This document shows, piece after piece, positions 29-17,534 of a stretch of DNA of 40,499 nt. How positions within the stretch are numbered: position 1 is the stretch's first letter; every line of letters begins with the position of its first letter. Origin of the DNA: Rubrivivax sp. (lineage in GTDB: Bacteria > Pseudomonadota > Gammaproteobacteria > Burkholderiales > Burkholderiaceae_C); contig DYOR01000017.1 of NCBI GenBank assembly GCA_020720385.1, forward strand, positions 1 through 40,499. The letters are read 5' to 3'. A model generated the notes under the pieces. The model was given only the letters and a program-made list of their open reading frames with translations, was not told the DNA's origin and searched no databases. The translations under genes and the position numbers were made by a program.

Positions 29-189
29 GTGCGGTGTTCCATGCTGTGCGGCACTTAAGAAAACCGATGGATTTGTCGTCCTGGCCAGGCGCAAACCACA
101 GCGGTGCCGCGTGGCATCGCGAGGATTTGCAACGACGCCAGGGCGGCAAAGACGCGGTTTTATGTGCCGCATAGCGTGGAACACTGCAC
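29..189. repeat. Structured inverted repeat (copy A) upstream of plsC
   Basis: The segment folds back on itself in three nested layers. Outer arms are 29-54 and 164-189 (26 bp, 3 mismatches), continuing more loosely to 66 and 155. Inner arms are 72-85 and 137-150 (14 bp, 2 mismatches). The core at about 88-139 starts GGCGCAAACCACAG and ends CGAGGATTTGCAACG, around a short hairpin (GTGCC/GGCAT). All five arm mismatches become G-U pairs if the plus strand is transcribed. The same core, with a different but still paired central hairpin, occurs in the element at 14897-15167. No coding function is visible. The right arm ends 12 bp before the acyltransferase start, so it could lie in that gene's leader. 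I do not recognise a named family; a dispersed MITE or REP-like repeat is the likeliest class. Confidence 0.75.
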
Positions 190-12705: not shown

Positions 12706-14088
12706 ATGGACCAGTCGAACCGCTACGCCGACCTCAGCCTGAACGAGGCCGAACTCATCCAGGGTGGGCGCCACATCCTGGTGGCCTACAAGATGAAGCC
12801 CAAGGCGGGCTACGGCTACCTGGAGGCCGCGGCGCACTTCGCCGCCGAGTCCTCCACCGGCACCAACGTCGAGGTCTCCACCACCGACGAGTTCACCAAG
12901 GGCGTGGACGCTCTGGTCTACCTCATCGACGAGGCCACCGAGGAGATGCGCATCGCCTATCCGCTGGACCTCTTCGACCGCAACATCACCGACGGCCGCA
13001 TGATGATGGTGAGCTTCCTCACCCTGGCCATCGGCAACAACCAGGGCATGGGCGACATCCAGCACGCCAAGATCTACGACTTCTGGATGCCGCCGCGCGC
13101 CATCCAGCTTTTCGACGGCCCGAGCAAGGACATCAGCGACATGTGGCGCGTGCTCGGCCGCCCGGTGGTCAACGGCGGCTACATCGCCGGCACCATCATC
13201 AAGCCCAAGCTCGGCCTGCGCCCGGAGCCCTTTGCCGCGGCGGCCTACCAGTTCTGGCTCGGCGGCGACTTCATCAAGAACGACGAGCCGCAGGGCAACC
13301 AGACCTTCGCGCCGATGCGCAAGACGATCCCCTTGGTCTACGACGCGATGAAGCGCGCCATGGACGAGACCGGCGAGGCCAAGCTCTTCTCCGCCAACAT
13401 CACCGCCGACGACCACTACGAGATGCTGGCGCGCGGCGAGTTCATCCTGCGCGAGTTCGGACCCGATGCCGACAAGGTGGCCTTCCTCGTCGACGGCTAC
13501 GTCGGCGGCCCGGGCATGATCACCACGGCGCGGCGCGCCTTCCCCAACCAGTACCTGCACTACCACCGCGCCGGCCACGGCGCCGTCACCAGCCCGAGCG
13601 CCAAGCGCGGCTACACCGCCTATGTGCTGGCCAAGATGAGCCGCCTGCAGGGCGCCAGCGGCATCCACGTGGGCACCATGGGCTACGGCAAGATGGAAGG
13701 CGAGAAGGACGACCGCGCCATCGCCTACATCATCGAGCGCGACAGCTACACCGGCCCGGCCTACCACCAGGAGTGGTACGGCATGAAGCCCACCACGCCG
13801 ATCATCAGCGGTGGCATGAACGCGCTGCGCCTGCCCGGCTTCTTCGAGAACCTGGGCCACGGCAACGTCATCAACACCGCCGGCGGCGGTTCCTACGGCC
13901 ACATCGATTCACCGGCCGCAGGGGCCAGGAGCCTGCGCCAGGCCTACGACTGCTGGAAGGCCAAGGCCGACCCGATCGAATGGGCCAGGGAGCACCGCGA
14001 ATTTGCGCGCGCCTTCGACTCGTTCCCGAAAGACGCCGACGCGATCTTCCCGGGCTGGCGCGACAAGCTCGCCGGCGCGCATCGCTGA
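12706..14088 (+). CDS. cbbM: Form II ribulose-1,5-bisphosphate carboxylase/oxygenase
   Basis: CbbM carboxylates ribulose-1,5-bisphosphate to two 3-phosphoglycerates. The 460-residue sequence is form II throughout, with no small-subunit gene nearby. Catalytic Lys166 lies in [15 protein letters not shown]. The carbamylated Lys191 with Mg ligands Asp193 and Glu194 lies in [13 protein letters not shown], in the same numbering as Rhodospirillum rubrum. The phosphate-binding loop [11 protein letters not shown] and loop-6 region [14 protein letters not shown] are intact. Form II enzymes have low CO2/O2 specificity and suit high-CO2, low-O2 habitats. The gene is preceded by CbbR half-sites and followed after 8 bp by cbbQ. 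Confidence 0.98.
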
Positions 14089-14096
14089 GAACGGAG

Positions 14097-14900
14097 ATGG
14101 CGGCACTCGACGACTGGCGCGTCACCCGCGAGCCCTACTACGCGCCGCAGGGCGACGAGGTGGCGCTGTTCGAGGCCGCCTACGCCGCGCGTCTGCCGGT
14201 GATGGTCAAGGGCCCCACCGGGTGCGGCAAGAGCCGCTTCGTCGAGCACATGGCCTGGCGCCTGGGCCGGCCGCTGGTCACCGTGGCCTGCAACGAGGAC
14301 ATGACCGCGGCCGACCTGGTCGGCCGCTTCCTGCTCGAGCCCGGCGGCACGCGCTGGCAGGATGGACCGCTCACCCTGGCCGCGCGCCACGGCGCCATCT
14401 GCTACCTCGACGAAGTGGTCGAGGCGCGCCAGGACACCACCGTCGTCATCCACCCGCTCACCGACCACCGGCGCACGCTGCCGCTGGACAAGAAGGGCGA
14501 GCTGGTGCGCGCGCACGCCGATTTCCAGCTCGTCATCTCCTACAACCCGGGCTACCAAAGCCTGATGAAGGACTTGAAGACCTCGACCCGGCAGCGCTTC
14601 GCCGCCCTGGACTTCGACTACCCGGCCGCCGCGCTGGAGGCGCAGATCGTCGCCACCGAGACCGGCCTGCCGGTCGAACAGACCGCGGCGCTGGTGCAGG
14701 TGGCCGCGGCCGCGCGCCGCCTCAAGGGCCACGGCCTGGACGAAGGCATCTCGACGCGGCTGCTGGTGTATGCGGCCACGCTCATCCGCGGCGGCATTGC
14801 CCCGCGCGAGGCCTGCCGCATGGCCATGGTGCGGCCGATCACCGACGACGCCGACATCCGCGAGACGCTGGACCACGCGATCGACGCCATCCTTGCCTAG
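14097..14900 (+). CDS. cbbQ: CbbQ, MoxR-type AAA+ RuBisCO activase subunit
   Basis: A 267-residue MoxR-family AAA+ ATPase that, with CbbO, removes inhibitory sugar phosphates from RuBisCO. Walker A is GPTGCGKS (39-46) and Walker B is ICYLDE (101-106). Sensor and arginine-finger regions follow at ISYNPGYQSLMKDLKTSTRQRF. The start at 14097 lies eight bases after cbbM, with GGAG immediately before the ATG, a tight spacing that may lower translation. The stop TAG (14898-14900) lies inside a CTAG that is also the left boundary of the inserted repeat element, so the present stop codon may be one copy of a target-site duplication. Pairing with cbbM makes this the form II-linked Q2O2 activase type (inference from context). 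Confidence 0.95.
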   Translation: MAALDDWRVTREPYYAPQGDEVALFEAAYAARLPVMVKGPTGCGKSRFVEHMAWRLGRPLVTVACNEDMTAADLVGRFLLEPGGTRWQDGPLTLAARHGAICYLDEVVEARQDTTVVIHPLTDHRRTLPLDKKGELVRAHADFQLVISYNPGYQSLMKDLKTSTRQRFAALDFDYPAAALEAQIVATETGLPVEQTAALVQVAAAARRLKGHGLDEGISTRLLVYAATLIRGGIAPREACRMAMVRPITDDADIRETLDHAIDAILA

Positions 14901-15167
14901 GGCCTGTTCACACTACGGGAAGGGATCGCGTTGACAGCCAGAAAAGCCGCAGGCAAGGCGCAAACCGCAGCCGGGTTGGACACCCGGCGAGGATTTGCAA
15001 CGCCACGTGCGGCTTTTCTGGCTGCAACCCTGCGGGAAGGCCCGCCGAAACGGGCCACTCGTCGTGGCAGCGCTTGCCCGCACGCCAGTGCGGGCGGCGC
15101 GCTGCGCCTGGATTGGCCCGTTTCGGCGGGCCTTCGCGACCCTTCCCGCAGTGTGAACAGGCCCTAG
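14897..15167. mobile_element. MITE-like palindromic element (copy B) inserted between cbbQ and cbbO
   Basis: The 271-bp insert has perfect 18-bp ends, CTAGGGCCTGTTCACACT (14897-14914) and its reverse complement (15150-15167), extending to about 33 bp with one mismatch and one bulge. Removing CTAG from each end as a 4-bp duplication leaves termini GGCCTGTTCACACT. Inside are two strong hairpins. The first has 17-bp perfect arms 14935-14951/15008-15024 enclosing the core shared with copy A (GGCGCAAACCGCAG ... CGAGGATTTGCAACG). The second has 21-bp perfect arms 15036-15056/15115-15135 with a nested GCCCGCAC/GTGCGGGC. There is no open reading frame with transposase features. The duplicated CTAG fits the YTAR targets of some IS5-family transposases, so it could be a non-autonomous derivative moved in trans. 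Confidence 0.75.
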
Positions 15168-15200
15168 CGCCGCGCCCGCAGCCTGGGCGAGCAGCTGAGC

Positions 15201-17534
15201 ATGGCCGGCACCTTCTCCTCCTACGGCACGCGGCCGTCGACCGACGCGGCCGCACGGCCGCCGTCGCGCCACGCGGCGCTGCGCGAGCGGCTGGATTGCC
15301 GCTTCCCGGCGGTCGACGAGGTCTTCGACGCGTGCGTCGACGAGGCCGCGCGCGCCCTCGGCCCGCAGGCGCTGGAGGCGTTCATCGACCAGGCGCGCTG
15401 GTTCGGCAAGCTCGGCCGCGGCGCCGAGCCGCTGCTGCAGTTCCTCGAGGCCTGGCCCGGCGTGTCGCGCCTGGCCGGTGAAGCCTGTCTCGCGCCGCTG
15501 ATGCAGGCGGCGCAGGCCTTCCAGAAGTCGCCCAACGGCCCGGCCATCGCGCCGCTGCTGCAAAGCCTGCCCGCGGTGGCGCGGCGGCTGCGTTCGCCCG
15601 AGCTCATGGCGCAATACCTGGCGCTGGCGGTGGAGCTGATGCAACGCACCAGCCTGTCCATCCACGGCCGGCATGCCACCGAGCCCAGCCCCAGCCTGCC
15701 CACGTTCCTGCAGCAGGCCCCGGCGCTGGTGGGCCTGGTGCCGCTGGAGGGCCTGCGCCGCTGGGTGATGGAAGGCATCCGCCTGCACGGCGCGCATCCG
15801 CAGCGGCAGCTCGACTTCTTCGGCCTGGTCACCGCCGACGCGCGCGCGCTGCTGCAACGCGAGCGCCATGGCACCTTGCTCGTGGACGTGGAGCGCAGGC
15901 TCGAGCTCACGCTGCGCGGCCTGTGGGGCGAAGATCTGCCGCTGGTGCCCTACCCGGTGGGCGCTGCCGACGACGCGGCCGGCGCCGTGACCCAGCCCTA
16001 CCTGCAAAGCGACGGCCTGCGCCTGCCCGAGGTGCTGGACGATCGCGCCGGTGTCACGGCCATGCAGTGCTACCGCGCCATGCTCGCCCACCTCGCCGGC
16101 CACCGGCACTGGAGCCGGCCGCAGGTGGCCGACAACCTGAGCCCGCTGCAGCGCCTGGCGGTGGAATGCTTCGAGGACGCGCGCATCGACCACCTCGTGC
16201 TGCGGCGCTATCCCGGCATGGCGCGCACGCTGCACGCGCTGCACCCGGCGCCCGACGAGGACGCCTGCGACCCGGTGCGCGAGTCTTGCCTGCGCCACCG
16301 CCTGGCCTGTTTGTCGCGCGCGCTGCTCGATGCGCGCCACGCCTACAGCGACTCCACCCTGATCGAGTTCGTCCGTCGCTTTCACGAACACCTGCAGGGC
16401 TGCGCATCGTCCACGGCCGCGATGGCCCGGCTGGCGCTGGAATGGGCCGCGCGCACGCGCCGCCAGAGCGACCAGCAGGCCCTGGTGCGCTTTGCCGACA
16501 CGCGGGTGGAGTGGCGCGATGACAACCGCCACCTGTGGACCTTCATCGAGGTCGGCGACGAGGAAGACACCGCGCCCGACCCGACGCCGCGCCGCGCGCC
16601 CGACGACGGCGGCCTGCCGCCGCGTCACTACCCCGAGTGGGATGAGGCCACCCACGCCCACCGCCCCGACTGGGTCAGCGTCTACGACACCCTGCAGCCT
16701 GCCGGTGCCGCGGCCGATATCGATGCGCTGCTGGCACGCCACGCCGCCGAGGCGCGCCACCTCGAGCGCCTGCTCGACCTGCTCAAGCCGCAGGAGCGCA
16801 CGCGCCTGCGCTACCAGGAGGAGGGCACCGAGCTCGACCTGGACGTGGCGCTGCGTGCGCTCATCGACTGGCGCGCCGGCGCCCAGCCCGATGCGCGCAT
16901 CCACATTGACACGCGCAGCGACGGGCGCGACATCGCCGTGCTGCTGCTGCTGGACCTGTCGCAGTCGGTCAACGACCCGGTGGGCGGCACGGGCGCCGGG
17001 GCCGCAGCGGGTGCGACGGGTGAAACCGTGCTCTCGCTCAGCCGCGCCGCCGTCGCGCTGCTCGCCGGCGCCATCGCCGCGCTCGGCGACCAGCTCGCCA
17101 TCGCCGGTTTCCACTCCAACACGCGGCACGAGCTGCGCTACCTGCACATCAAGGGCTTTGCCGAGCCCTGGGGCGACGAGTCCAAGGCGCGGCTGGCCGG
17201 TGCGCAAGGCATGTTTTCCACCCGCATGGGCGCCGCGCTGCGCCATGCCGGCCACCTGCTCTCGGGCCGCCAGGCCGACAAGCGCCTGCTGCTGGTGCTT
17301 ACCGACGGCGAGCCGGCGGACGTGGACGTGAGCGACCCGCAGCACCTCATCGGCGATGCCGCCCAGGCCGTGCGCGAGCTCGACCGCCTGGGCCTGTACA
17401 CGCACTGCATCAGCCTGGACCCCCGCGCCGACGCCTACGTCGGCCGCATCTTCGGCGGGCGCTGGACGGTGATCGACCGCGTGGCGCAGCTGCCGCGCCG
17501 GCTGCCCGAGGTGTTCCTGGCGCTGACGCGCTGA
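15201..17534 (+). CDS. cbbO: CbbO, VWA-domain RuBisCO activase adaptor
   Basis: CbbO bridges the CbbQ hexamer to RuBisCO during activation. The 777-residue protein has a long alpha-helical N-terminal region, and a C-terminal von Willebrand factor A domain from about residue 575. The MIDAS metal site is complete: Asp585-Leu-Ser587-Gln-Ser589 (LLLLDLSQSVND), FSTRMGAALRHAG for the threonine, and VLTDGEPADVDV for the aspartate. The length fits the family (about 740-780). It begins at ATG 15201, 300 bp after cbbQ; nearly all that space is the palindromic element, so the normally close cbbQ-cbbO spacing has been broken. No convincing ribosome binding site precedes the ATG. Expression may depend on read-through of the element's hairpins or on a new promoter. 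Confidence 0.95.
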   Translation: MAGTFSSYGTRPSTDAAARPPSRHAALRERLDCRFPAVDEVFDACVDEAARALGPQALEAFIDQARWFGKLGRGAEPLLQFLEAWPGVSRLAGEACLAPLMQAAQAFQKSPNGPAIAPLLQSLPAVARRLRSPELMAQYLALAVELMQRTSLSIHGRHATEPSPSLPTFLQQAPALVGLVPLEGLRRWVMEGIRLHGAHPQRQLDFFGLVTADARALLQRERHGTLLVDVERRLELTLRGLWGEDLPLVPYPVGAADDAAGAVTQPYLQSDGLRLPEVLDDRAGVTAMQCYRAMLAHLAGHRHWSRPQVADNLSPLQRLAVECFEDARIDHLVLRRYPGMARTLHALHPAPDEDACDPVRESCLRHRLACLSRALLDARHAYSDSTLIEFVRRFHEHLQGCASSTAAMARLALEWAARTRRQSDQQALVRFADTRVEWRDDNRHLWTFIEVGDEEDTAPDPTPRRAPDDGGLPPRHYPEWDEATHAHRPDWVSVYDTLQPAGAAADIDALLARHAAEARHLERLLDLLKPQERTRLRYQEEGTELDLDVALRALIDWRAGAQPDARIHIDTRSDGRDIAVLLLLDLSQSVNDPVGGTGAGAAAGATGETVLSLSRAAVALLAGAIAALGDQLAIAGFHSNTRHELRYLHIKGFAEPWGDESKARLAGAQGMFSTRMGAALRHAGHLLSGRQADKRLLLVLTDGEPADVDVSDPQHLIGDAAQAVRELDRLGLYTHCISLDPRADAYVGRIFGGRWTVIDRVAQLPRRLPEVFLALTR

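Follow-up and report, generated by a model that had tools for sequence, protein, structure and literature searches.

A two-arm mobile element at the cbbQ stop codon of Rubrivivax sp. and its relatives

The window analysed here, a 40,499-nucleotide stretch of a Rubrivivax sp. draft genome (contig DYOR01000017.1), carries a RuBisCO large-subunit gene, which we take to be the form II gene cbbM, followed by cbbQ and a cbbO-like gene, all three co-directional. An insert with inverted ends lies between cbbQ and the cbbO-like gene, and a one-arm member of the same family sits close to the start of the window. The features are listed below with the evidence for each, where R1 denotes our model of the arm.

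29..189, + strand: one-arm family member, 161 bp, with ends GTGCGGTGTTCC/GGAACACTGCAC (R1 match 69-155, E 2.7e-12, absent from the R1 alignment)
12706..14088, + strand: RuBisCO large subunit (NF010002, 895.9 bits; RuBisCO_large)
14097..14900, + strand: cbbQ, 267 aa (AAA_5 and CbbQ_C)
14898..14899, no strand: left TA of the putative target duplication; this TA and G14900 form the cbbQ stop TAG (flank reading, family boundary)
14900..15164, + strand: two-arm mobile element, 265 bp (inverted ends; boundary from 30 relatives; full-length homologues with other flanks; empty junctions in relatives)
14900..14930, + strand: terminal stem, left strand (inverted end; inverted-repeat analysis, fold)
14935..15024, + strand: arm 1, a hairpin with the conserved inner motif C(A/T)AGGCGC...GCAACG (R1 match 14938-15023 on the + strand, E 1.4e-21, a match by construction because both window arms are in the R1 alignment)
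15028..15036, + strand: tiny central hairpin, CCC-loop-GGG (both predicted CG pairs identical across all 32 elements)
15033..15138, - strand: arm 2, of the same kind as arm 1 but on the opposite strand (inverted repeat; homology to arm 1; R1 match 15042-15127 on the - strand, E 3.5e-21, likewise by construction)
15135..15164, + strand: terminal stem, right strand (inverted end; inverted-repeat analysis, fold)
15165..15166, no strand: right TA of the putative target duplication (flank reading, family boundary)
15201..17534, + strand: cbbO-like gene, 777 aa (position after cbbQ; name from the preliminary description)

The cbbO-like protein has no Pfam or NCBIfam match; it is 76% identical to the product of the gene after cbbQ in one sister genome (G041, 489 aligned residues) and 71% identical in another (G079, 487 residues). 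From the cbbQ stop to the cbbO ATG the distance is now 300 nt and shrinks to 33 nt when the insert is cut out, in line with the compact cbbQO arrangement that the preliminary description had predicted for the excised locus. Of the 81 genomes of the genus, 19 contain CbbQ relatives at E<=1e-60. Eight of the 25 non-window CbbQ loci were aligned, and the junction was read closely in two of them, G041 (CbbQ 91% identical) and G079 (86%). Both junctions are empty, with the cbbO-like start ~30 and ~37 nt after the cbbQ stop as judged by protein alignment, which supplies the vacant sister site that the preliminary description had proposed to look for and supports its claim that an inverted-end element splits cbbQ from cbbO. 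The insert has moved in and is real. Since the stop in both sister genomes is TGA and not CTAG, the exact pre-insertion site and the TA duplication at cbbQ are reconstructed from family statistics. A second empty site concerns a related element (L016) that occupies a TGA stop and is flanked by TGA left and right; a relative (L364) has one TGA, four bases and the ATG of the next gene. It was the only one of five aligned relatives to give both flanks, two of the other four ending at the left TGA and two having been read on the wrong strand.

Copies with other flanks, another proposed check, are present in the genus, with three full-length relatives in G025 (89-90%) and one in G020 (89%); some match to the element occurs in 43 of the 81 genomes (host counted), many of these matches being short. 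In the 3.36-Mb draft genome of the host, the window copy is the sole full-length one. A second CbbQ-like gene (58% identity) lies on another host contig (G000:C202; L168, L214), with a one-arm element ~16 kb away.

The insert had been drawn as 271 bp with a duplicated CTAG, and CTAG is indeed found at both edges (14897-14900 and 15164-15167). Comparison of 30 related elements, taken from among the matches listed, leads to a different boundary. TA adjoins the left end in 24 of the 30 and the right end in as many, with 19 elements flanked by it on both sides; position -3 is C or T in 28 and position +3 is A or G in 28; 11 of these 30 TA-type copies have no TA on one or both sides. The element is therefore best placed at 14900-15164, with the boundary TA|GGGCC...GGCCC|TA and a probable TA duplication inside a YTAR target, in place of the longer insert. 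Its G+C content is 0.687. The inverted ends match perfectly over the first 18 bases, as described earlier, and then continue through one mismatch and nine more pairs, so that the measured pairing covers 28 nt at 96% where an extension to about 33 bp had been given. Of the two internal hairpins, the 17-bp one (14935-14951/15008-15024, 100%) stands as described, and the second, given as 21 bp, measures 28 nt at 93% (15033-15060/15111-15138). Open frames of at least 120 aa cross the element on both strands and run past its limits; the element itself appears to make no protein.

Short length (<500 bp) and terminal inverted repeats are both hallmarks of a miniature inverted-repeat element (MITE), and the window element has them. 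Dispersed copies are found as well, as one full-length element in the host, others in sister species and 15 single-arm relatives in the host. When the 16-base end was used as a pattern in a scan of a genome collection, at least 119 stretches matched. Among the matches listed, 50 pairs of facing ends lay 20-2600 bp apart; 31 of these pairs span 263-268 bp and nine span 39-52 bp. Very short elements of ~47-55 bp consist of two facing ends alone (L031, L038, L061, L067, L309-L311, L315-L317 and L327), several of them with TA flanks; these are possibly deletion products that have lost the arms.

The analysis of length and fold started from 62 elements, oriented and aligned, that came from the listed scan matches and the genus. 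Their lengths fall within 263-268 bp, and 54 of the 62 measure 265 or 266 bp, after candidates had been pre-selected at 255-275 or 240-300 bp. A set of 32 elements less than 85% identical to one another (median pairwise identity 52%) yielded a consensus fold of 92 pairs, 80 of which show double compensatory changes. In this whole-element fold, which the preliminary description had missed, a terminal stem encloses two homologous arms with a tiny central hairpin between them. Read on the strand to which it belongs, arm 2 is a homologue of arm 1, and in both C(A/T)AGGCGC faces GCAACG. Pairing holds in 91.0% of cells on the consensus fold versus 62.6% in shuffled alignments, and the covariation score is 0.693 versus 0.179 (sd 0.008), with none of 500 shuffles scoring as high; in the terminal helix, 91.9% of cells pair. 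Sliding the partners by one column lowers pairing to 42%, and although scoring a fold on the alignment from which it was derived flatters it against such slid controls, the gap is large. Mismatches were counted as a guide to the strand on which the fold might act. G.T and A.C mismatches number 138 and 124 in all, and 92 and 89 along the arms. This balance argues against selection as a one-strand RNA, and a DNA-level role for the fold seems the more likely. The parts of the element lean in opposite directions (terminal helix, 28 G.T and 53 A.C; arm 1, 46 and 25), so the strand test is not a clean one. Covariation in a palindrome can, in addition, arise from hairpin-templated repair.

One and the same core carries different ends, with either TA or TNA duplications. 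Elements that begin with GGGCCTGTTCACACTA have a TA duplication, and elements with the same core and the same length that begin with GAGGTTGAGAGGC, GAGTGTGAGAGGC, GAGCCTGTGAAG or similar sequences have 3-bp TNA duplications. In the host genome, R1 gave 17 matches below E 1e-9, which are the two window arms and 15 single arms. The ends of these single arms are of the GAGCTTGTGAAG type in six cases, GAGCGTGAGAGT in three and GTGCGGTGTTCC in four, the element at 29-189 among them, with one variant and one unclear case, and the host one-arm elements with clean ends measure 159 or 161 bp. The one-arm element at 29-189 has TAG on its right and TG instead of TA on its left; it lies just upstream of an acyltransferase-like gene (202-822). 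At E<=1e-5, R1 matched 115 of 398 sampled Pseudomonadota genomes (host included), or 62 of 213 genera, a count in which some genomes may hold sequences used to build the model. The best 60 loci of this list were fetched and gave 45 measured two-arm elements, 10 that were one-arm or uncertain and five without clear ends; 38 of the 45 span 264-273 bp with outer palindromic bases included. A strict arm pattern proved too narrow for use: it matched one of 21 genomes, and the host was not among its matches.

Similarity searches of the plasmid and phage collections found no DNA similar to the window element. A relative in G270 matched four records catalogued as Azotobacter, Halomonas and Pseudomonas plasmids, L328 and L329 among them, and none of the matching stretches bears an annotated feature; two of the four records were inspected, the second of which carries one annotated feature in all. 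When 149 genomes of the genus to which G270 belongs were searched with the flanks, G270 alone matched.

The end sequence and the short YTAR or TNA duplication agree with published IS5 ends (PMC3189936, in its available part). The search for a transposase acting on these ends covered several kinds of candidate. Among the matches listed, two elements, L054 (826 bp) and L084 (838 bp), resemble the window element in having such ends and TA flanks and differ from it in encoding a transposase, both with DUF4096. DDE_Tnp_1 was found in L084; in L054 the scan covered the first frame. Such IS5-family elements with a DUF4096 transposase are presumably of the IS427 type. The two lie in metagenome-assembled genomes of other phyla, a Verrucomicrobia and a Treponema, outside the carrier genomes examined. 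At E<=1e-5, no DUF4096 transposase was found in the host or in 18 of the 22 carrier genomes. One carrier, G321, has a DUF4096 element of 836 bp (L265) that is flanked by TA and has GGGTCAGGACCC ends; it was rejected as a partner, its ends sharing only the first five bases with those of the two-arm element there. Nine DUF4096 loci in G250 (L264, L268 and L271-L277) were also set aside, as they show no mutual blastn match above 300 bp and no convincing inverted ends; their proteins are perhaps stand-alone transposase-like genes. DDE_Tnp_1 was found at 26 loci in eight of 13 genomes, none with a matching pair of ends; an apparent end near a transposase in L338 was a chance match, and the host's single such locus sits at the edge of a contig, which leaves its ends unreadable. 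A search for partners by end pattern covered five genomes, in which a 3.96-kb pair of ends in G270 frames flagellar and signalling genes and thus represents two stray ends. A 1315-bp stretch with such ends in an Acidobacteriaceae metagenome-assembled genome (L035, 4034-5348) has frames that resemble another transposase type, which we assume to be IS3-like. The carriers searched thus yielded no autonomous partner with matching ends, in draft genomes that may miss repeats. For this reason we lower our confidence that the element is IS5-driven, as had been proposed, and leave its MITE-like character as it stands; the part of the earlier proposal that holds is the IS5-like ends and duplication.

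The preliminary description had also stated that the target duplication carries the cbbQ stop codon, and this agrees with both the window, where TA and G14900 make up the TAG at 14898-14900, and the TNA class in this genus. Among 22 TNA-type two-arm elements of the genus, 21 had enough flank on the TGA side, and the TGA is the in-frame stop of an upstream frame in 19 of them, compared with 10 of 84 shifted control frames (p 9e-12); the upstream frame had to be open and to show a coding-like G+C bias. One-arm TNA elements of the host lie on stop codons in seven of eight tested (of nine in all), calls that were judged from frame lengths and base composition without a separate control. For TA-type elements, TAG sides fall on stops in 15 of 46 cases versus 7 of 118 controls, and compared with ordinary YTAG sites they are only slightly enriched on stops (18 of 57 sides versus 46 of 245, p 0.047). 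Other genomes sampled show no stop-codon excess (TAG sides, 8 of 42; control frames, 21 of 132; GAG type, none of 10), in a test that required a frame open for 100 codons and applied no base-composition filter. A family-wide stop-codon law is thus rejected, the 43 two-arm elements from other genomes doing no better than control frames. What holds is that the TNA class in this genus ends up on stop codons, sparing the upstream gene. These copies are also oriented. Aligned by the core, 20 of the 22 TNA two-arm copies have TGA on the left, and the two exceptions still lie on stop codons; one-arm copies read along the arm have TCA as the left triplet in nine of nine and as the right in eight of nine. 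The two ends of the TNA two-arm copies agree at 19 or 20 of the outermost 20 positions, so that the outer ends give no clue to left or right. What distinguishes the two sides is either the arms or selection on orientation beside a gene.

Several described families share part of this design. MITEPsy1 of Pseudomonas syringae is 100 nt long with CTAG/YTAA and a 4-nt duplication, and ISPsy19 of the same species is an IS5 element with GAGGGTGTAGACAAAAT ends and a 3-nt duplication, according to the accessible part of PMC3189936. Judged by that text, the present family resembles the IS5-type MITEs of P. syringae in its inverted ends, its CTAG/YTAR or 3-nt duplications and its shortness, as in MITEPsy1, and its GAG...TG-type ends resemble those of ISPsy19; it differs in the two-arm fold, the near-fixed length of ~265 bp, the several end types per core, the phylum-wide spread and the failure to find a partner in the carriers searched (PMC3189936). 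The CIR elements of Caulobacter and Brucella likewise consist of two long inverted repeats, that is, two arms joined by a linker; the portion of PMC2229807 at hand describes them with a conserved GANTC and without a stem formed by the 5' and 3' ends. Our family has paired ends and carries GANTC in 8 of 64 arms and 14 of 32 elements; for CIR, this comparison draws on the description in the same portion (PMC2229807). The window element has no GANTC. Correia/NEMIS, RUP and ERIC elements are similar in being small, non-autonomous and mostly intergenic, with inverted ends and stable predicted transcripts; as far as the available parts of the two reviews go, they are single stem-loops without arms or linker (PMC2229807, PMC10969869). 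Searches of an open-access library turned up no title or abstract that describes the two-arm family, and a Polaromonas JS666 paper, cited for MITEs in the seen part of PMC10969869, may describe it. On what these sources give, the ends and duplications fit IS5-type MITEs and the two-arm layout recalls CIR (PMC3189936, PMC2229807).

Our best overall explanation, in which we place somewhat more belief than doubt, is that a non-autonomous element with IS5-like ends sits at the cbbQ stop as a member of a family kept by its whole-element fold. The boundaries and the empty junctions show the insert to be a transposable element that moved in at the cbbQ stop, probably into a CTAG of which it copied the TA; the cbbQ frame thus retained its stop, and the junction lengthened from 33 to 300 nt. 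The conserved part of the family, as the covariation and the arm model show, is the whole-element fold, made of a terminal stem formed by the inverted ends and one or two homologous arms with an asymmetric inner loop. In the aligned elements the ends vary from one subfamily to another, and the core and the length are retained. The end sequence and duplication type suggest as the most likely mover an IS5-type DDE transposase, provided in trans, that would act at the ends. The arms were most likely kept because folded DNA, on either strand, helps mobility or insertion, a role to which the strand-neutral covariation points, together with an orientation of insertion left unexplained by the outer end sequence. 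The element could instead be an ordinary MITE whose fold has no function, its hairpins correcting themselves during replication or repair so that the arms stay palindromic while they drift. Such a process would fit the balance of G.T and A.C mismatches, and the inverted ends and TA/TNA duplications are as in known MITEs. Repair, however, would tend to perfect the hairpins, whereas an imperfect inner loop is kept in both arms of 32 diverse elements, and drift would be expected to lose both this loop and the near-fixed total length, which makes this account rather unlikely. The MITE reading holds, but it is too small for the element.

We think still less of a role for the element as RNA in the cbbMQO transcript, where it would fold, be cut by RNase III or bound by a protein and set the CbbQ:CbbO ratio, with similar effects at other gene pairs. 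The element does lie between co-directional genes, its predicted RNA fold is very stable (-211.0 kcal/mol), and RNase III processing of Neisseria MITE transcripts is described in the accessible part of PMC2229807. Against such a role, there is no net G.U excess, a simple consensus scan of 14000-15400, which also bears on the damping of cbbO conjectured in the preliminary description, found neither an intrinsic terminator nor a sigma-70-like promoter, and Rfam gave no match at gathering score in 16 loci, with three sub-threshold miRNA-family matches around the window element (14600-15500). For the stop codons, the preferred explanation leaves two routes, in that the TNA class of this genus would reach them, sparing the upstream gene, by targeting or by selection. 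A choice of target sequence (CTGAG or CTAG) followed by loss of harmful insertions, without any targeting of gene ends, has a little less than an even chance in our judgement. It is in keeping with the YTAR- or CTGAG-like targets, the missing excess in other genomes sampled and the weak TA-type excess over ordinary YTAG sites, and in the window a single CTAG, located at a stop, falls outside coding frames and elements (1 and 0, by crude gene calls). It accounts less well for the TNA-type elements of the genus, 26 of 29 of which lie on in-frame stops, since among intergenic sites in the window non-stop CTGAG is as common as stop CTGAG (6 and 5) and YTGAR divides into 30 and 10. With these rates as the base, the TNA-type stop excess has p ~8e-7 or less, a value that depends on gene calls that are crude and visibly wrong in places, an antisense frame having been chosen over the cbbO-like gene.

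A bolder proposal, which we put forward tentatively and regard as doubtful, is that the elements form a phylum-wide mobile class in which the folded DNA arm, and not the end sequence, is the conserved recognition unit; joined to different ends, the arm would set the orientation and in some lineages steer insertion onto stop codons. For carbon fixation, the locus offers a natural case of an operon with its activase genes pushed apart. The relatives on plasmid records might be passed from one host to another. Landing precisely at stop codons, as in one genus, would account for the entry of these elements into operons with the genes left intact, and a 92-pair fold and near-fixed length that persist despite changing ends suggest that selection in small bacterial mobile elements acts on structure as well as on end sequence.
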